Part shown: positions 22,574 to 36,469 of the stretch, one piece after another
How the letters are laid out: every line of letters starts with the position of its first letter
How positions within the stretch are numbered: position 1 is the first letter of the stretch
From: Myxococcus sp.
GTDB lineage: Bacteria; Myxococcota; Myxococcia; Myxococcales; Myxococcaceae
Assembly: GCA_014879945.1 (NCBI GenBank)
Contig: JACSRE010000311.1
Span: 1 to 48,039, forward strand
Direction of reading: 5' to 3'
Length of the DNA stretch: 48,039 bases
The notes under the pieces: generated by a model
What the model saw: the letters and a program-made list of their open reading frames with translations, nothing else
Told to the model about the DNA's origin: nothing
Databases searched by the model: none
Position numbers and translations under genes: made by a program

Positions 22574-24472
22574 TCAACTCAGGCGAGCAGTGGGGTTAAG
22601 GAAGGCTGCGAGGTCGCCTCGATGGTTCAGAAGGACTCGAAGACGCGCCCAGTCGCCGTAGAGGTCGTGCGCGAACGCGAGGCGATCGTCGGGTACCTGC
22701 ACGAGAAGCTGATCAGCGGTGAGAGACTGCGCAGCGGGCAGCGAACTCGCCTCAAGCGCGTCAACCGAGACGGAGACTACGAGTTGGTCGGCCTGTGCCT
22801 GAGCAAGGCTGCGCGCGAATTGCCCGCGCGCGAGACGGTCTGAACCTCGGTCGATTTCTGCATTCCAGAACCACTCCGCGACGCTCGACTCGCCGACCCA
22901 GCCAGAAGCGTCGATGGCTGTTCCCCCATTGAGACGTCGGACCACCAAGTCCAACAGTTTCAGGTTCGTGAGTAGTGATCCCACCTGGGGCTGGAGAAGG
23001 AGCCGAGCCAGCGCGGGAACAGCATTTCGGACCGGCCGGAGGTCTGCTGCTCGCAGCGCCTTCGCTTGGTGAGTATGCCAGCGACCTACCGGTACGCCCG
23101 CGCCGGCGCGCTGCAGGCCCTCGAGCACTCTCGGCCACTCCTGCGACTGGCAAACGGCAAGGATACGCCACTTGGTTGCTTGCGGGCCGCCACCTGCAGT
23201 TCGAAGCAAGGTCGCGACCGTGCGAAACGCGTGGTCTGCGTACAGACGATCGAGCCCGTCCAGGATGATGAGCGGCTCGCGGCTGGTCTCGCTCGCCAGA
23301 AGTTCCGAAAGCGGATGTCGAAGATGGAGCGATGACTCGACCGCCCCGAAGTCTGCGACGTGGTCGAGCGAGGTGGCATCGACCCACAACGTTCGCTCAC
23401 GGTTCGTGATGCGCTGGTCAAAGATGGCCTTGGCGAGCGCCGATTTCCCGACGCCCGAAGAACCAAGCAGCGCGACCTGCGGATGCTCGGCAATCGACTG
23501 GAGGGCTCCAGCAACCTGCTCGTCACGGGGAAGGCGAACGTGGTCAGCGATCGAGTCTCGTACGAGGCCAGCTTCACGCGCCGAGCGCGCATCGAGCGTC
23601 GCCCAGTCACCTGCGTGATCGGGGTAGTCCCCGAGCGCGATGCGCGCGCGCAACCTGTTGACGAGGTCGAGCAGAGTGAGGCTTCCGGCCTGCGGGCGCA
23701 GCTCCTCCGCGATTTCGCGCAAGATGCTCCACAGAGCCTGGGCGTCGGCAATGACCTGGCTTCGTACCGCCCGTCGACACAGCTCGAGCGCGCGGTTCCG
23801 TGACTCGGAAGCAACGGCTCCGAAGTCATGCTGGATGAACCGAAGGCGTTGAAGGAGGCGAGTCGTATCGACGCCGGTGGTGGATTGGCCCAGCGACGTC
23901 GGGCACGAGAAGGTCGCGAAAAGTGCTCGCTCGTCTGCGCTAGCCCAGTTCGCCGTCGCGAGGCGGGATGGGAACAGCGAGGGGTCGTTGGAGCGCGCCT
24001 TCTCGGTCAGGCCGGACACCGAACCCGCGGCTGCACCCGACAGCGGGGCGGTCACAAGCCCCAAGAAGTCGAGAGCGACGTCGAACACGTTCGATCCGAT
24101 GTGGAGCCACTGCTCCCAAGCCGCCTCGACAAAGTCTGACGGGGCAGACGTCGCCGTGAACTGCGCATTGCTCTTCACTGAGAGCGCGAAGCGATGGTGA
24201 ATGGCACCGACCGCTGTCGTCACCAGCACGTCATCGAGGAACCAACCATCGGGCCGCGTTTGGAAGTCGAGGCGAATCGGCGGACCGTTCTCCACGCCGA
24301 AGACCGGCTCTCCCACCAACATTGCAGCGAGCAGCCACGAGCAGACGTCGTCCTCGAAGACGAAGCCGCCTCCACCGGTGTTTTTCGGCGGCGCGACGCT
24401 ACTGGCCACAAACAACTCCGCGGAAGCGACGCGAGCAACGCTGCTCCTCAAGCTGGCGCCAGTCGGGGACAT
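22574..24472 (-). pseudogene. STAND NTPase with nuclease-like N-terminus, N-terminal part (interrupted by IS630)
   Basis: The present ORF has 632 codons; the last ones belong to the IS, so native sequence ends near 22597. Counting from 24472, residues 34-102 show [11 protein letters not shown] (Glu40), F-L-D-D-V-L-V (Asp80/81) and F-A-L-S-V-K-S-N (Lys100), a PD-(D/E)xK-like layout as in Cap4/DUF4297-type effectors. A STAND-type ATPase follows: Walker A G-S-S-G-V-G-K-S (337-344) and Walker B L-I-I-L-D-G-L-D (401-408). With the downstream part, the intact protein would have about 1,780 residues, as in Avs-type phage sensors. GTG 24409, overlapping the upstream stop by 11 bases, is an alternative start. 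Confidence 0.8.
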
Positions 24473-24737
24473 GGGCGCTCATGAGCGCCTTGAAGAGCCG
24501 CCCGTGTGTAGGCACGCGCAGGTGCAGCAGCTCATGGGCGATGACGAAGTCCTGGAAGCGTGGGGATTGATCGGCGAGGTCGCTGGCCAGCGTGACGGTC
24601 CCCGCCGACGAACACGAGCCCCACTTCCTTCGCATGTCCTGCACGCGGATCACCCTCGGGTTGACGCGTAGCTTCACCGCCCAGGACAAGGCGCGGCGTC
24701 GAAGCTCCTGTGTGGGGTAGAGGGAGGTTTTCATCAT
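24399..24737 (-). CDS. YgjP/DUF45-type zinc metallopeptidase of type I RM locus
   Basis: A 112-residue protein with K-W-G-S-C and, after 25 or so residues, [15 protein letters not shown]: an H-E-x-x-H-x5-H zinc site characteristic of the YgjP/WSS1-like DUF45 peptidases. Short versions of this family are regularly encoded next to hsdR genes. It starts 3 bases after hsdR and ends inside the start region of the STAND gene, which physically links the restriction operon with the STAND gene. Substrate unknown; a role in turnover of the restriction complex or DNA-protein adducts is only inference. Confidence 0.83.
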
Positions 24738-24740
24738 CGG

Positions 24741-27673
<2,933 letters not shown>

Positions 27674-27677
<4 letters not shown>

Positions 27678-28996
27678 GACACCGCCTCCTGCGGCTGAGA
27701 CGCGTCGAGCGCGGACAGTGTCAATTGGTCGACGCGAAGCTCGCCAGTCATCAGCTTGTGCAGCAGCGCCTTGAACAGCTCTTCGAGGATTGCGCGCCTC
27801 TTCTGATGCAGCTCGATCTTTCGGTCGAGCGCATCGAGGATGGTGACGATCTCGTGCTGCACCTCGAGGTTGGGGGGCAGCGGGAGAGGCAGCGAGTCAA
27901 TCGTGCCCGTATTCAGGTTGTACTTGCCATCGGCAGCCGGAGTGGCGCGGCCGGCGACCAACGAGGTGCCCAGTGCCGATCCGTAGAAGTACGCAACGTA
28001 GCGGGGATCGACGCTATCCTTGAGGCGCGCGCGAATGAGGTACGATGCGAACAGCGCGGCTTGTGGATCGCCACGATAGACCGCGCAAGCTCCCAAGCGT
28101 TCGATGACCCCGTTGGTGCGAATGAACAGAAGGTCACCGGCGCGGAGAAGATACTTTGCGGCCTCGTCGTCGGAGAGATCACAGTATTTGAGCTCCGATG
28201 CATCGACTCGACCCGGCTCCACATTGGGGATGCGCAAGACCGGGTAACGCTTCTTTTCGAGAGAGCAGTGGACCGATGTGCCGTACTGCAGCCATTCCCG
28301 AACGCTCTTGAAGTCGACGACATCCCAACTCTCTGGAACTGGCCCAATCTCGGTCTCCTTCTGCGCTTCCCCTGACATTCCGCGCGTAAAGAGCTCGCTG
28401 AGGGTCGTGAGCTTGAGCGATCGTGAGCGATCTTCGAGCTCGAACTCTTGCACAATGTGCCCGCGCACTTTGCGGAGAACTTGAGCAATCGACTTCTGCT
28501 CCCGAAGACTCGGAAGATGAACTGAGAACTCCTTCAGCTTACTTGCGCTGATGTTTGCTTGGCTCACGCCTCGGCTCGCAAGCTTCTTGAGCTCGTTCTG
28601 TGCCACGTCCCAGTTGATCAAGAAGTTGAGGAAATGTGGATCAACGCGCGTTCGGTCCACTGCAAGCCGAACGAGGTACGAGGCGAACACCGCTTTCACG
28701 TCGTGGTCGAACACGGCCGATCGCCCGACCAGCTCGTAGCTATTGGTCCGGTTGAAGAGGATGTCTCCTCGGTTGAGCGCGAATGCAGCGAGGGTGCGCT
28801 CGTCGATGTCGACGTACTGCAGGTCCTGGAGCGAGACCTCTCCATCCACTTGGCAGTTCATCCGCAGGATCGGATAGGAACCGGCGGATTCACCGCGAAT
28901 CGACAGACCGTACTGCGCGGCCAGAGTAAAGTCCCCGATCGCGCACGTATCCCAGTCCTGCGGGATTGTGCCCAAGCTGGTCTCCTTACGAAGCAC
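27674..28996 (-). CDS. hsdS: Type I restriction-modification specificity subunit
   Basis: A 440-residue HsdS starting at GTG 28996, overlapping the hsdM stop by 11 bases. Two target-recognition domains are visible, each introduced by a P-x-x-W-D/P-x-S-W-D motif (residues about 12 and 220) and followed by helical central and C-terminal conserved spacers with L-P-L-P-P and E-Q-x-x-I-A-type segments. It decides the bipartite DNA target of the M and R subunits. The recognition sequence cannot be predicted by reading. Confidence 0.92.
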
Positions 28997-30830
28997 GATG
29001 AGCCTCGTTGACCTGATCTACGAGCGGGCGGAGGAGAGAAATGAGCACCTTCGAGGCGCGCGCTTGCTCAGCGCCAAGTTGTTCCAGCTCCGACACCAGC
29101 GCCCCAATGTCACGGTGACTGCTCTCGGTCGTGTTCCCCACCCAGCGACTCGGGCTCAGATTGTAGTCCTTCGCCGCAGCCTGCTCGCGAGTGATGACAG
29201 CGATCTCGCCCTCTATCGGGTCGCCCTTCAGAAAGCTGGCCGCCAGCGCGCGGATGTCGTCCTCAGGCAGGTAGTTCTTGGGCTTGCCCTTCTTGAAGTG
29301 CCGACTCGCGTTGAGCAGGGTGATGCGGCCCTTGCGCGCGGCGGGCTTGCGCTTGTTGAGCACGATGACCACGCCCGCCGCGGTCGTGTTGTAGAAGAGG
29401 TTGTCGGGCAGAAGGATTACGCCATCGATCAAGTCGCGATCGACGAACCACTTGCGGATGTTCCGCTCCTTGTCCTCGTTCTTCGAGCCCGAGCCGCGCG
29501 TGACAGCGCCCGTGTCGAGAACGACGGCGGCGCGACCCTTATCGTTCAGGGAGGCCAGAGTGTGCTGCAGCCACGCCCAGTCTCCCTTGCCGGTCGTGAT
29601 GCCACCCGTCGTGCGGAAGCGATCGAAGGGGTCGTTCGCGAACACGTCAGGGGCGAACGGCTGGTTCCACATCGGGTTCGCGACGACCACGTCATGCGTT
29701 TTGATCTTCCCCTCGGGCGTGCGGAACTTGGGATTGATCATCGTGTCGCCGCGCGCGAGCTCGATCTGCATGTCGTGGATGATCGCATTCATCTTCGCGA
29801 CGGCGTAGCTCTCGGCCTGCAGCTCCTGAGCGGTCAGCTTGAGCGGCACCTTGCTCGTCGGATCGAGTTCACGTGCGACGATCTGGAGCTTCACGAGCAG
29901 GCCTGCCGACCCGCAGGCGTAGTCGTGGCAGTCCTCGCCTGGCTTCGGCCGCAGGATGTGGGCCATGAGGAAGCCCACCTCGGTCGGCGTGAAGAACTCG
30001 CCCGCGCTCTGGCCCGAGCCCTCCGCAAACTTCCTGAGCAGGTACTCGTAGGCGCGACCGAGGAAGTCTGGCTGCACGTCTGCGAGGCCGAGGCGGTAAC
30101 GGGGATCGGAGAACGTCTCGACGACGCCGCGCAGCTTTGCGGGGTTGATGTCGCGCTCGCCGTTGCGCTCGGCGGCGAAATCGACGACGTCGATGACGCC
30201 CGAGAGTGAAGGGTTTTTCTTTACAACGGCGCGTACGGCCTTGGTGAGGTGCTCGCCGATGTCGCGTGGCTTGTCCTTGGCGGGCCAGTCCAACGTCTCG
30301 CGTCCGGCGAGTACCGCCCACCGCGCTTCAGCCGGAAGGTAGAAGCGAAGAAGCGAGTGATCACCCTCGGCGATCTCGAGCGCGGTTTCGCGGTCGCCGT
30401 ACTCCTCGGCGAGCCTATCGATCTCGTCGTCGAAGACGTCCGAGAGGCGCTTCAAGAAGAGAAGTGGGAGCAGGTAGTCCTTGAACTTCGCAGCGTCCTT
30501 CTCTCCGCGAATGGAACAGGCCGCATCCCAGAGCATCTGTTCCATGGGCTTGGTGCTGGGGCCGGTGTCGGGGGAGGACGCCTTTCGGCGCCGTCGGGTA
30601 ATGTCGGCAGCGGGAGCGTCGGCTCCGCCACTACCCGCCTCATCGACGCCCGCGTCCCTGGCGAGCGCGGCAATGACTTCGCGCGCCGCCTTCTGGGGCA
30701 CGTTCGCGCCGCCCTCCCAACGATTGACAGTTGCGAAGGAGACGCCCAGCTTCTCGGCGAGCTGCTCCTGGGTCAGGTTGAGCTTGGAGCGGAGCGCTCG
30801 AAGGACCGGGGCGACGTTCGACATTGCCAT
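28986..30830 (-). CDS. hsdM: HTH-HsdM fusion: type I N6-adenine methyltransferase with N-terminal XRE domain
   Basis: About 614 residues from ATG 30830 (ATG 30824 is equally possible). The first 55 or so residues are an XRE helix-turn-helix ([19 protein letters not shown] ... V-N-R-W-E-G-G). After an Ala/Arg-rich linker comes a standard HsdM, with an N-terminal helical domain (W-D-A-A-C-S-I-R-G), SAM motif D-Y-A-C-G-S-A-G-L and the catalytic N-P-M-W in place of N-P-P-F/Y. The methylase protects host DNA at the sites set by HsdS. The DNA-binding head and the palindrome just upstream suggest autoregulation of the operon. The codons upstream of 30830 lie in the operator and are probably not translated. 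Confidence 0.9.
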
Positions 30831-30832
30831 AT

Positions 30833-30855
30833 GTGCTATATATGCTATATAGCAC
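30833..30855. promoter_or_regulatory. Palindromic operator/promoter of the hsdMSR operon
   Basis: Perfect 10-bp inverted repeat GTGCTATATA (30833-30842) / TATATAGCAC (30846-30855) with a 3-base spacer, 2 bases before ATG 30830. On the minus strand TATATA motifs could serve as -10, with CTGGAC about 18 bases upstream as a weak -35. It would suit binding by a dimer of the XRE domain of HsdM. Confidence 0.7.
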
Positions 30856-30904
30856 GACATGTCCAGAGGCCTTCTTTCAGTGACTTGGACGGACAGGAAG
30901 GCAT

Positions 30905-30935
30905 GGGTGTCGGCGGAGTTAGTCCACCGACACCC
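30905..30935 (-). terminator. Strong hairpin after glycine-zipper gene
   Basis: GGGTGTCGG (30905-30913) / CCGACACCC (30927-30935), extendable to 12 pairs with one G-U, 7-base loop. It starts 10 bases after the stop of the 65-residue gene. No clear T-run, so either a hairpin protecting the transcript or a weak terminator. Confidence 0.5.
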
Positions 30936-30945
30936 TGCCCAAGAC

Positions 30946-31143
30946 TCAGTCCGCCGCCGCTGCGCCGAGGCCAGCCATCACGCTCGCGCCGATAACGGCG
31001 CCAACGGGCCCGCCGATCATCGAGCCGATGGTGGCGCCGATCACCGCGCCGATCCCTGCACCCCGCGCAGGCTTGCGGTGCTTTTCCGGAATGAGGGCCC
31101 AGGTTCCCTGGGCCAGCAACTCCTTTGCTTGCTTGTTCTGCAT
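30946..31143 (-). CDS. Glycine-zipper small membrane protein
   Basis: A 65-residue protein. After a polar, basic head (about 28 residues) comes a long helix rich in G-x-x-x-G steps ([21 protein letters not shown]), a glycine-zipper that packs tightly in membranes and is known from membrane-perforating and pore-like small proteins. The ribosome site is exceptionally strong: AAAGGAGGTGATC ends 5 bases before the ATG, close to a full anti-SD complement. It lies divergent to the dynamin operon and has its own sigma-54-type promoter. Role as a membrane effector or stress protein is inference. Confidence 0.8.
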
Positions 31144-31174
31144 ATTCGATCACCTCCTTTCTGTGCGCCGGTAG

Positions 31175-31190
31175 AGCAGCCGGCGTGCCA
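31175..31190 (-). promoter_or_regulatory. Sigma-54-type promoter of glycine-zipper gene
   Basis: On the minus strand TGGCACGCCGGCTGCT: 15 of 16 positions of TGGCACRNNNNTTGCW, with the invariant GG and GC exactly 10 bases apart. Predicted start near 31164, giving a leader of about 21 bases with the strong Shine-Dalgarno site. Confidence 0.75.
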
Positions 31191-31234
31191 CGCGGCTGGC
31201 GCTCGGACGGACCCGAGAAGACCGCCCAAGTCGC

Positions 31235-31269
31235 CAACGCGAGCGTTGCCAACGCCAACGGGAGCGTTG
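31235..31269. promoter_or_regulatory. Two tandem dyad sites, candidate shared enhancer (UAS)
   Basis: CAACGCGAGCGTTG (31235-31248, perfect 6-2-6 palindrome) and CAACGGGAGCGTTG (31256-31269, 5-bp arms) spaced 21 bp centre to centre, two helical turns. They lie about 70-105 bp upstream of one predicted sigma-54 start and 95-130 bp upstream of the other, the classic place for enhancer-binding proteins. The likely binder is the activator encoded at 33361. Confidence 0.7.
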
Positions 31270-31336
31270 CCTCTTTCGGTGGCAGAACGAGGGGACAGGC
31301 CGAGCATCTCCCTCCATCGCTACCTTCCGGTTCAAC

Positions 31337-31353
31337 TGGCACAACGGGTGCTT
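31337..31353 (+). promoter_or_regulatory. Sigma-54-type promoter of dynamin/activator operon
   Basis: TGGCACAACGGGTGCTT: 15 of 16 consensus positions, GG and GC exactly 10 bases apart. Predicted start near 31363; the ATG follows at 31385 with GGAG about 10 bases before it. Confidence 0.78.
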
Positions 31354-31384
31354 CAGGCCACGAACACACTGGAGATCTCAAACC

Positions 31385-33364
31385 ATGTCCGACCATTTCA
31401 AGACGTTCGAACTCAGGAAGAAGCAGGTCGTCCGATTCGGTGAGCGATTGACGTCGCTCGCACGCGACGGCCACGACGAAGAAGCGGCCCGCGTTCTCGC
31501 CGAATTCATGGCGCGGTTCGGGAGCAACCGGTTTCTCGTTCTGACCGTGGGGGACTTCAAGAGCGGCAAGTCGACGCTCGTGAACGCTCTAGTCGGCAAG
31601 ACCGTGTGCCCTGTGAAGGCGACGCCTCGAACTGCAAAGGTGACAAGGCTCAGCGCGACAGCCGTGGCCGATGAGCCTGAGTTCGTCGAAGTGGTCTTTC
31701 GAGAAGACCGTCCGCCGGAGCGGCTGCGCCTCGAGGATGGGCCGCTGGATGAACTCGTCGCGGTTGGGGGAAAGCGAACGAACGAAGTGGAACTCGTCGA
31801 TGTCTATCTTCACCCACGCGAGACCATCCTCCGACACCCCGTGCGGCTCGTGGACACGCCTGGTATCGGATCAGGAGAGTCCGAGCACTCGAAGCTCACG
31901 CGCGAGTACTTGAAGCACGCGGACGCAGTCCTCTTCGTCTTCTCCGGATCGAAGCCCTACAGCGAATCCGAGCGCGACTTCCTCCTCACGTTTCGGAGTC
32001 TGCTGGAACGAACCGTCTTCGCAGTGAACCGCATGGATGACGTCCCGCCCGAAGACCGCAACGACATCATCGAGCACATTCAGACAAGTCTCGTGCGAGA
32101 CATTCTGGAAACGGGCGCACCAGTCCCGACCATCTTTCCTGTCTCTGCCACGAAGGAGTTGGCGGCAATGAAGACGGGCGAGTCTTCCTCCGACTCTGGG
32201 GTTCCGGCGCTCGTGGCCGCTCTTGAGGAGCGCATCGCTGGGACCCTTGCGCTTCGGCTGCTGAGTGAGATCGGGGGACAGCAGGCGCAGGTGTGCGAAG
32301 GACTGGTTGAGCGCGCGCAACTCTCGCTCGAGGCCCTGGCTGTGAGCGCGGAATCGGTTCAAGTGAAAAAGCCCAAGGTGGCCGAAGTCCGCGCCGCGCT
32401 GCGGACGATCGCCGGCAGCGCCACTCGGATCGAGCAGGCCGTTCGTGACCGAGAGGCCCGCGTGGTGGAACAAGTGCCGGCGCGGATGTCGCGCCTGCGC
32501 AGCGAAATCGTCAATGCAACGTGGGCCTGGATTCAACACTGTCCAACTGAGAGTGCCTGCAAGCAACAGCTGCCGGGCGTGGTCGCCAAACTCGTTTCGG
32601 ATCAGCTCGCTTTGCTCGACCGCGAGCTGCTCTCGGTCCTCGTGGAGGCGCAGAACGTTGCCGAGGCGGACCTCCGCCAGCTCTTCGAATCGCTTGAGAA
32701 GAAGGCGAGGCAGATCCTCATAGCGGACAAGGCCGTTCCGCAGGCTGGCCGTGGAGGGTTGCGCAAGCGCGCGGCAGCACTTTCACGGCTCGCGGCGATC
32801 GCTGACGGCGTAGGTGGACCGACAGAAGGCTACGGTGTTGCGGCCGCGGCGATCGCCGGTGCTCTCGCACCGTCCTCCACGGTGCGCTTTCTCTCAGTCA
32901 CTGCCGCGGTCTCCCTCTTGATCGCGACGCTCGGTGGCCCTGTGGGCTGGCTTGTTGCCGGCGTAGCGAGCCTCTTCGCGGCCCTCGTTGGCTACGATCA
33001 CGCTTCGACTTGGCGGGAGCGCGTGCTCAAGCACATGGCAGAAGCCTTTGATCGGGAAGTAGTACCCCGGACTGAGCAGGCAGTGGAGGAATCCCTACGC
33101 ACCTACTTCGTAGGGTTGGCGGCCGAGATCCAGCAGCGGGCTACAGCCTTTGTCGATCAGCTTCAATCCATTGCTAACGAAGTCGAGCGAGAGCTGGAAC
33201 GCGAATCACGGAGCCGCGATGCGGAGTTGAAGCGGCTGGGACTTCATGTCCAGCAACTCGAGGCCCTTCAAGGGGAGCTGGCTGATTTCGTAGCGGACGT
33301 TTCGCCTCAATCGACAGCAGCATCGGAGCCCCTGGCACTCGCAACAGGGAGTCCGGCCACGTGA
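31385..33364 (+). CDS. Bacterial dynamin-like GTPase
   Basis: A 659-residue dynamin-family protein. G1 G-D-F-K-S-G-K-S (56-63), switch region P-R-T-A-K-V-T, G3 D-T-P-G (157-160), G4 N-R-M-D (215-218). A long helical stalk follows, and a hydrophobic hairpin at roughly 490-535 (T-A-A-V-S-L-L-I-A-T-L-G-G-P-V-G-W-L-V-A-G) would insert into membrane; a coiled-coil tail closes the protein. Bacterial dynamins remodel or protect the inner membrane, and some act against phage lysis or membrane-pore stress. The stop overlaps the GTG of the sigma-54 activator gene by 4 bases, so the two are coupled and share the sigma-54 promoter. Confidence 0.9.
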   Translation: MSDHFKTFELRKKQVVRFGERLTSLARDGHDEEAARVLAEFMARFGSNRFLVLTVGDFKSGKSTLVNALVGKTVCPVKATPRTAKVTRLSATAVADEPEFVEVVFREDRPPERLRLEDGPLDELVAVGGKRTNEVELVDVYLHPRETILRHPVRLVDTPGIGSGESEHSKLTREYLKHADAVLFVFSGSKPYSESERDFLLTFRSLLERTVFAVNRMDDVPPEDRNDIIEHIQTSLVRDILETGAPVPTIFPVSATKELAAMKTGESSSDSGVPALVAALEERIAGTLALRLLSEIGGQQAQVCEGLVERAQLSLEALAVSAESVQVKKPKVAEVRAALRTIAGSATRIEQAVRDREARVVEQVPARMSRLRSEIVNATWAWIQHCPTESACKQQLPGVVAKLVSDQLALLDRELLSVLVEAQNVAEADLRQLFESLEKKARQILIADKAVPQAGRGGLRKRAAALSRLAAIADGVGGPTEGYGVAAAAIAGALAPSSTVRFLSVTAAVSLLIATLGGPVGWLVAGVASLFAALVGYDHASTWRERVLKHMAEAFDREVVPRTEQAVEESLRTYFVGLAAEIQQRATAFVDQLQSIANEVERELERESRSRDAELKRLGLHVQQLEALQGELADFVADVSPQSTAASEPLALATGSPAT

Positions 33365-34479
33365 AACGGATAGGCGCAGTGCCTTCAAGCGATGAGTTCG
33401 TCACGGGCAGCAGCCCCGCCTTGCGCTCGCTGCTGGACGAGGTTCGCACCATCGCGCGAACGCGGGAGCCGATTCTGCTGCTGGGTGAGACCGGGACTGG
33501 CAAGGAGCGGCTTGCCCGCTCGATCCACGCCATGAGCAGTCGCGCCAACGGACCTTGGGTTCCTGTGAATTGCGGGACGCTCACCCCGGAGCTGGCGGAT
33601 AGCGAGCTCTTCGGGCACACGCGCGGCGCCTTTACTGGCGCTGCCGGGCCCCGCGATGGCCTCCTCGTTACGGCGAACAAGGGAACGATCTTCCTCGATG
33701 AGATCGGCGACCTCCCGGTTCCGACCCAGGTGAAGCTTCTGAGGGTCTTTGAGGACCCGCGAATCCGGGCAAAGGGCGCTGACCAGGAGACTGTGATCGA
33801 CGTCCGAATAGTTGGGGCGACGAGCGTCGATGTCACCCAGGCCATGAGAGACGGGAAGTTCCGCCGTGACCTCTTCCAGCGGTTCCAGTCTGCGCACCGG
33901 ATTCCTCCGCTTCGCGAACGACCAGAAGACATCGAAGCGCTCGCTACGCACTTCCTCGCGCTTCACGCTGGCGGTGAGGGCCTCAACCCCGCGGCGACCA
34001 TGATCTCCGAGCCGGCACTTGCTCGGCTTCGCGCAGGCCGATGGAAGGGCAACGCCCGCGAGTTGGAGAGTGCAGTCAAGGGCGCCCTTGCGCGCACGTT
34101 TACGTCATGCACTGAGCAGCTCGACGTCACCGACTTCGTCGTCAGCGCCACCGAGCAAGACGCCCCCCAAGCTCCTTCGATGGTGACTGCCATCGACGCT
34201 GTCCGATCGCTCGCGGCGTTCCTACTTGAGGAGCTGCAGGGCCAGCGTGTCCCCGCGGCAAGCATCGAGAACCTAGCGAAGCAATTCTCTGCGGTTTCGC
34301 TCAAGCGGCAGCTCGCAGAGGTCTTCCTGTCGAGGTACCAGGGCGCCGTCGCCGACGACAATGCGCGACGACTATTTGGGTACTCGTCTGCGGAGAGCGT
34401 GCGCCGCCTGCTCCGCACGTCGGCCCGTCGAGCCAACGCGGCCCCAACCGCCCCAGACTCGTTCGGGGACGAAGAGTAG
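33361..34479 (+). CDS. Sigma-54 enhancer-binding protein without sensor domain (PspF-like architecture)
   Basis: A 372-residue AAA+ activator starting at GTG 33361. Walker A G-E-T-G-T-G-K-E (42-49), the sigma-54-contacting G-A-F-T-G-A loop (89-94), Walker B F-L-D-E-I-G (111-116) and an R-R-D-L-x-x-R segment with the arginine fingers. The AAA+ domain begins almost at the N-terminus (V-T-G-S-S-P-A-L), so there is no receiver, GAF, PAS or FHA sensor. The C-terminal 50 residues (A-D-D-N-A-R-R-L-F-G-Y-S-S-A-E-S-V-R-R-L-L-R) form a Fis-like HTH. PspF has the same layout and is controlled by a protein partner. It probably activates the two sigma-54 promoters at 31175-31353. Confidence 0.88.
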   Translation: MKRIGAVPSSDEFVTGSSPALRSLLDEVRTIARTREPILLLGETGTGKERLARSIHAMSSRANGPWVPVNCGTLTPELADSELFGHTRGAFTGAAGPRDGLLVTANKGTIFLDEIGDLPVPTQVKLLRVFEDPRIRAKGADQETVIDVRIVGATSVDVTQAMRDGKFRRDLFQRFQSAHRIPPLRERPEDIEALATHFLALHAGGEGLNPAATMISEPALARLRAGRWKGNARELESAVKGALARTFTSCTEQLDVTDFVVSATEQDAPQAPSMVTAIDAVRSLAAFLLEELQGQRVPAASIENLAKQFSAVSLKRQLAEVFLSRYQGAVADDNARRLFGYSSAESVRRLLRTSARRANAAPTAPDSFGDEE

Positions 34480-34490
34480 CTTGCAGGGGC

Positions 34491-34921
34491 TCAACATCTG
34501 AGCCGGCACTCCCAGACCGCCACCTGATGCTCCCAATTGCCGACGTGCGCAACATCTCGAAGCGACTTCTCGCTGAAGAGTTCGACGCCGTCGACGGCCT
34601 GGAGAGCCAAGACGGCCTCCTGGATGTGGGGCGCCAGAAGCAGGAGGTCGAGGAGCTGGGTCACCCGCGCGCGCGTGAGCCCGAGCTTCCTCGCGAGTGC
34701 GGCGCGGTCTGCAACCAGGCCCTCGTCGATCAACCGCTGCAGGTGGTGCGCGAGAGCAAGCATGCGCGCGACCTTCGCGGGACGGCGCACCGGCGCTCGA
34801 GGTTCGGGTGGCGTCGGAGGCGTGTTGGTAAGCTCGACACGTCGCCCCTGTCGCCGAAACAGCGTGCCCTTCAAGACGAGCCGGTCCGCGAGCGTCTTCT
34901 CGACTGATTCCTTCGTGTCGG

Positions 34922-34925
<4 letters not shown>
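34491..34925 (-). CDS. ParB/KorB-like HTH protein of recombinase operon
   Basis: A 144-residue protein with an HTH (D-R-A-A-L-A-R-K-L-G-L-T-R-A-R-V-T-Q-L-L-D-L-L-L-L-A-P) like the DNA-binding domain of ParB/RepB-type proteins. The 4-base overlap (ATGA) with the recombinase stop shows translational coupling. It probably acts as accessory DNA-binding factor or regulator for the recombinase. Ends 11 bases from the convergent activator gene. Confidence 0.75.

Positions 34926-36465
<1,540 letters not shown>

Positions 36466-36469
<4 letters not shown>

Follow-up and report, generated by a model that had tools for sequence, protein, structure and literature searches.

Tandem dyads between divergent sigma54-type promoters as the probable shared enhancer of a dynamin-like GTPase operon and a glycine-zipper gene in Myxococcus sp.

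The window analysed here is a stretch of 48,039 nucleotides of Myxococcus sp. DNA, in which two transcription units diverge from a common intergenic region. The plus-strand unit opens with the gene for a dynamin-like GTPase of 659 amino acids (31385-33364), which carries a Dynamin_N domain and is LeoA-like. Directly downstream, and overlapping the GTPase stop by four bases, starts the gene for a 372-residue sigma54 activator (bEBP) without a sensor domain (33361-34479, plus strand), in the same operon, as the initial annotation had it. On the minus strand lies a gene for a glycine-zipper protein of 65 amino acids (30946-31143), which has a strong ribosome site, AAGGAGGTGATC, and was absent from that earlier account. 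The locus lies within an apparent defence and mobile island (22574-36469), where it is flanked by a weakly matching STAND-like NTPase (22574-24472), type I restriction genes (24741-30860), a weakly matching ParB-HTH-like protein (34491-34925) and, at 34922-36469, a large serine recombinase.

The intergenic region contains two tandem dyads. Dyad 1 (31235-31248) reads CAACGC-GA-GCGTTG, with 6-bp arms, and dyad 2 (31256-31269) reads CAACG-GGAG-CGTTG, or CAACGGGAGCGTTG, with 5-bp arms. Both 14-mers are present as first described, and their start-to-start spacing is exactly 21 bp. The description of CAACGCGAGCGTTG as a perfect palindrome requires amendment; its arms CAACGC and GCGTTG match perfectly, but the central GA is asymmetric, making this an interrupted dyad. 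The direct repeat formed by the two dyads reaches 19 bp, CGCCAACGSGAGCGTTGCC, of which 18 positions are identical. As 21 bp corresponds to two helical turns, both dyads are expected to lie on one face of the DNA.

The dyad pair is not a random occurrence. Chance is excluded because the sequences concerned are rare genome-wide and because shuffled sequence almost never reproduces the pair. CAACGNGAGCGTTG has only two copies in the 7.7-Mb genome, both of them in the pair at 31235-31269, and the looser pattern CAACG-N4-CGTTG occurs eight times, with two of these occurrences again in this pair. When the intergenic region was dinucleotide-shuffled 20,000 times, only one shuffle produced two dyads with the same arms 20-23 bp apart, and none produced the motif-specific pair. 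Furthermore, none of the other genomic CAACG-N4-CGTTG sites has a TGGCA-N8-GC element within 350 bp, which suggests that the site is dedicated to this locus.

The dyads are flanked by two sigma54-type promoters. A search of both strands of the window for TGGCAY-N6-TGC returned two sites only, and these face outward around the dyads: TGGCACAACGGGTGCT (31337-31352, plus strand) ahead of the dynamin-bEBP operon, and TGGCACGCCGGCTGCT (31175-31190, minus strand), which serves the glycine-zipper gene. In both, the GG and TGC elements are separated as the -24/-12 consensus demands, and the promoters invoked in the initial annotation are thus real matches. Relative to the inferred transcription starts, the dyad centres lie at about -121 and -100 for the dynamin-bEBP operon and at about -77 and -98 for the glycine-zipper gene. 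Enhancers are typically found some 70-150 bp upstream (PMC3844500), and for both promoters the dyad centres, at 77-122 bp ahead of the inferred start, fall within this range, as had been proposed.

The activator encoded in the operon possesses an AAA+ domain with a Walker A motif (GETGTGKE), the GAFTGA motif and the AAA+ lid domain. In this 372-residue protein the Sigma54_activat domain starts as early as residue 15, leaving no room for a sensor domain. The C-terminal domain has proved harder to classify. It matches no known HTH family, and searches against Pfam, NCBIfam, PADLOC, PDB sequences, Foldseek and VIA-align returned nothing usable. It likewise failed to match HTH_8 or the 27 HTH_8 sequences of the same genome, and a profile comparison with the 27 Fis-type HTHs of that genome scored no better than shuffled columns. 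The helix-turn-helix ascribed to the 33361 protein in the initial annotation therefore finds no backing in searches by family or by fold. Among the three orthologues described below, this C-terminal stretch of ~100 residues shows 33-35% identity, and a structural model of it, at moderate confidence (pLDDT 73), has five helices, with a possible HTH in the final three; the full-length model is poor (pLDDT 44). The domain could be an HTH that has diverged, or a domain of some other type.

Related loci were sought in 195 genomes of the phylum, and two orthologous ones were identified, in genomes G059 and G102; their GTPases are 45% and 43% identical, respectively, to that of the window. Both contain a divergent glycine-zipper gene (63% protein identity in G059, 51% in G102), the GTPase gene, a downstream activator gene and both TGGCAY-N6-TGC promoters, again facing outward. 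The initial annotation had suggested looking for the dyads upstream of orthologous operons, and had named their absence from related loci as a refutation; paired dyads are present in both loci, and the proposal therefore withstands this test. In G059, read in the direction of the GTPase gene, these are CAACGCCGGCGTTG and CAACGCCGACGTTG, with a spacing of 21 bp, and in G102 they are CAACGAAACCGTTG and CAATGAGTTCATTG, 22 bp apart. The orthologous dyads take the form CAAYG-N4-CRTTG; their N4 cores and most of their flanks differ from those in the window, but the CAACG/CGTTG arms are kept. Conserved arms around variable cores are the pattern that would be expected of protein half-sites, and on the strength of sequence and conservation we predict that the dyad arms serve as half-sites for the activator. 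Across the 195 genomes the paired pattern CAACGNNNNCGTTG-N6..9-CAAYGNNNNCRTTG was found at the three orthologous loci and nowhere else, with the reversed pattern, run as a control, matching in one genome. The sigma54 gene rpoN is present in all three genomes (G000, G059 and G102), and apart from the bEBP no recognisable transcription regulator is common to the three loci.

The two orthologous loci also show rearrangements. In G102, an insertion of 210 bp whose ends are 20-bp inverted repeats (L018:9670-9879) separates the dyads from the GTPase promoter. It puts them 350-380 bp apart, a distance that looping can still bridge. The activator gene of G059 is interrupted by ~1.6 kb of other DNA (L017:2017-3657), and both halves still match.

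A paired site, its flanking promoters and a single sigma54 activator have thus been kept together in three diverged genomes, and the paired form of the site is unique to this locus. The simplest reading of this arrangement is that the dyads are an upstream activating sequence. Like half-sites spaced 21-22 bp apart between divergent -24/-12 promoters in the orthologues, and absent elsewhere in the 195 genomes, support the suggestion of the initial annotation that the two promoters share an enhancer to which the activator of the operon binds, controlling itself as well. We consider it highly probable that the dyads form the shared upstream activating sequence of the operon's own bEBP, which would provide both bidirectional control and positive autoregulation.

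In the mechanism that we propose, dimers of the activator would occupy the two neighbouring CAACG-N4-CGTTG sites, both on one face of the helix, and assemble into an oligomer. Looping of the DNA would bring this oligomer to the sigma54-RNA polymerase held at each flanking -24/-12 promoter, and ATP hydrolysis, coupled through the GAFTGA loop, would then open both promoters. Transcription to the left would yield the glycine-zipper protein, and transcription to the right the dynamin-like GTPase plus more activator. Positive feedback is expected, since the activator gene belongs to one of the two transcription units. As the bEBP has no sensor domain, a partner acting in trans would have to switch it on and off. 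Of the co-regulated products, either the GTPase or the glycine-zipper protein would be an obvious candidate for this role, and the control of PspF by PspA provides a precedent (PMC9650030).

Other explanations of the dyads deserve consideration. They might be the operator of a different DNA-binding protein, acting as repressor or activator, and candidate genes do lie nearby: HsdM carries an Xre-type HTH (HTH_3/HTH_31) fused at its N-terminus, and the product of 34491-34925 weakly matches a ParB HTH. We regard this as very unlikely, given that inspection by eye of the ORFs in ~20 kb around the G059 and G102 loci revealed no counterpart of either the HsdM-HTH or the ParB-like protein although the dyads are kept there, and given that a sigma54 promoter requires a bEBP in any case. 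Alternatively, the activator could play a dual role, with the dyads serving chiefly to repress or restrain the operon that encodes it, and with only the glycine-zipper promoter being activated. PspF is able to downregulate its own gene, and the spacing from the dyads to the glycine-zipper promoter is the shorter of the two in both the window and G102. In G059 it is the GTPase side that has the shorter spacing; moreover, all three loci conserve the -24/-12 promoter of the GTPase-bEBP operon, which cannot fire without a bEBP, all of which makes a dual role very unlikely in our judgement.

A regulatory role for the 21-bp repeat could also be denied altogether, if it reflected chance, a coding repeat of seven codons, or a structural DNA or RNA element. 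Paired patterns with a 21-bp period do occur in several viral contigs with no bEBP or glycine-zipper gene nearby, where they are probably seven-residue coding repeats. A non-regulatory origin is nonetheless extremely improbable here, as the pair is intergenic in all three loci and unique to them among the 195 genomes. The coding-repeat reading in particular was rejected on account of this intergenic position and of the 22-bp spacing in G102, which cannot be in-frame. As a separate observation, the paired pattern in the viral contigs (L060-L070) mostly has the 21-bp period, and three of these contigs carry one identical repeat.

The shared upstream activating sequence that we favour has parallels among characterised sigma54 systems. 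E. coli PspF lacks an N-terminal sensor domain and acts from upstream sites in a divergent intergenic region, on a -24/-12 promoter and membrane-associated targets. The window locus resembles the psp system in the absence of an N-terminal regulatory domain from its bEBP, in the location of its sites in a divergent intergenic region, in its -24/-12 promoter and in having membrane-associated genes as its predicted targets. It differs in that neither PspA nor any other Psp gene lies beside it, the targets being a glycine-zipper protein and a dynamin-like GTPase, and in that the activator is encoded inside its target operon, has CAACG-N4-CGTTG as its predicted site and has a putative DNA-binding domain that is not recognisably Fis-type. 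With a score of 208 bits against the PspF model, whose cut-off is 444 bits, the window protein is not a PspF orthologue. Among the NCBIfam and PADLOC models, its AAA+ domain is closest to RtcR, the activator of the RNA repair operon, but the match begins only at position 180 of the 530 in the model and reaches 272 bits against a cut-off of 650 bits. Unlike RtcR, the window bEBP has no CARF sensor domain, and no rtcBA genes were recognised beside it. The autoregulated one-component EBPs of Desulfovibrio, whose genes are co-localised with sigma54 promoters and whose motifs were derived from orthologous upstream regions, offer a further parallel (PMC4641369). There, as here, the activator gene lies beside sigma54 promoters and comparison of orthologous upstream regions yields the motif; the motif and genes of the window are different, and its two tandem dyads, with helical-phase spacing, are common to two divergent promoters.

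For the GTPase itself, the closest known systems are the LeoA-family and DynA bacterial dynamins, as it is related to LeoA models as well as to structures of bacterial dynamins. Its similarity to the LeoA and LeoBC models is only partial (PADLOC E-values of 5e-27 and 3e-20, respectively), and its score against the NCBIfam LeoA model is 36 bits, with a cut-off of 325 bits. A scan of a genome collection recovered the G059 contig and one remote relative only. Plasmid and phage records contained weak dynamin matches only, and orthologues were not found in viral contigs. Distant dynamin relatives (L006-L014, 26-33% identity) were accompanied by neither a GAFTGA activator nor a glycine-zipper gene, as judged by motif, and the literature library that we searched held no paper on a sigma54-controlled dynamin or on a sigma54-glycine-zipper system. 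Enhancers of this type are well known; the locus that this one would control is rare and appears undescribed.

A more speculative picture of the whole locus, which we put forward as a tentative possibility, is that of a self-contained and rare stress- or phage-response switch. The GTPase or the glycine-zipper protein might hold the bEBP inactive until the membrane is disturbed, whereupon its release would fire both sides of the enhancer with positive feedback, and the DNA-binding domain of the bEBP might belong to an undescribed family. The predicted pairing of activator and site is precise and testable, for what is apparently an undescribed sigma54 locus, and it would connect all-or-none, enhancer-dependent transcription with a bacterial dynamin. 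Should control in trans prove true, the locus would represent a second PspF-like design, with a dynamin in place of PspA. As the locus is rare, the immediate reach of these findings is modest.

The 65-residue product encoded opposite the GTPase is a small membrane-type protein whose gene is very probably switched on from the dyads. Its matches to the glycine-zipper families of Pfam are weak and under the curated cut-off, and a comparison with plasmid records gave no match. Members of the glycine-zipper family also accompany sigma54 activators of a second, larger type in three other genomes of the phylum (G062, G085 and G097). At the corresponding loci (L053, L055 and L056), an activator gene encoding 650-695 amino acids is followed by the glycine-zipper gene, and a conserved promoter-like site of the TTGGCA type lies near the activator start. 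This second arrangement, with its TTGGCA-type site, raises the possibility that control of small glycine-zipper proteins by sigma54 activators is a recurrent theme. The glycine-zipper gene of G062 is followed by a GIY-YIG-like ORF; a similar ORF of 123 amino acids, also GIY-YIG-like with Pfam matches under the cut-off, lies directly downstream of the glycine-zipper gene of G102 (L018:8603-8974, minus strand).
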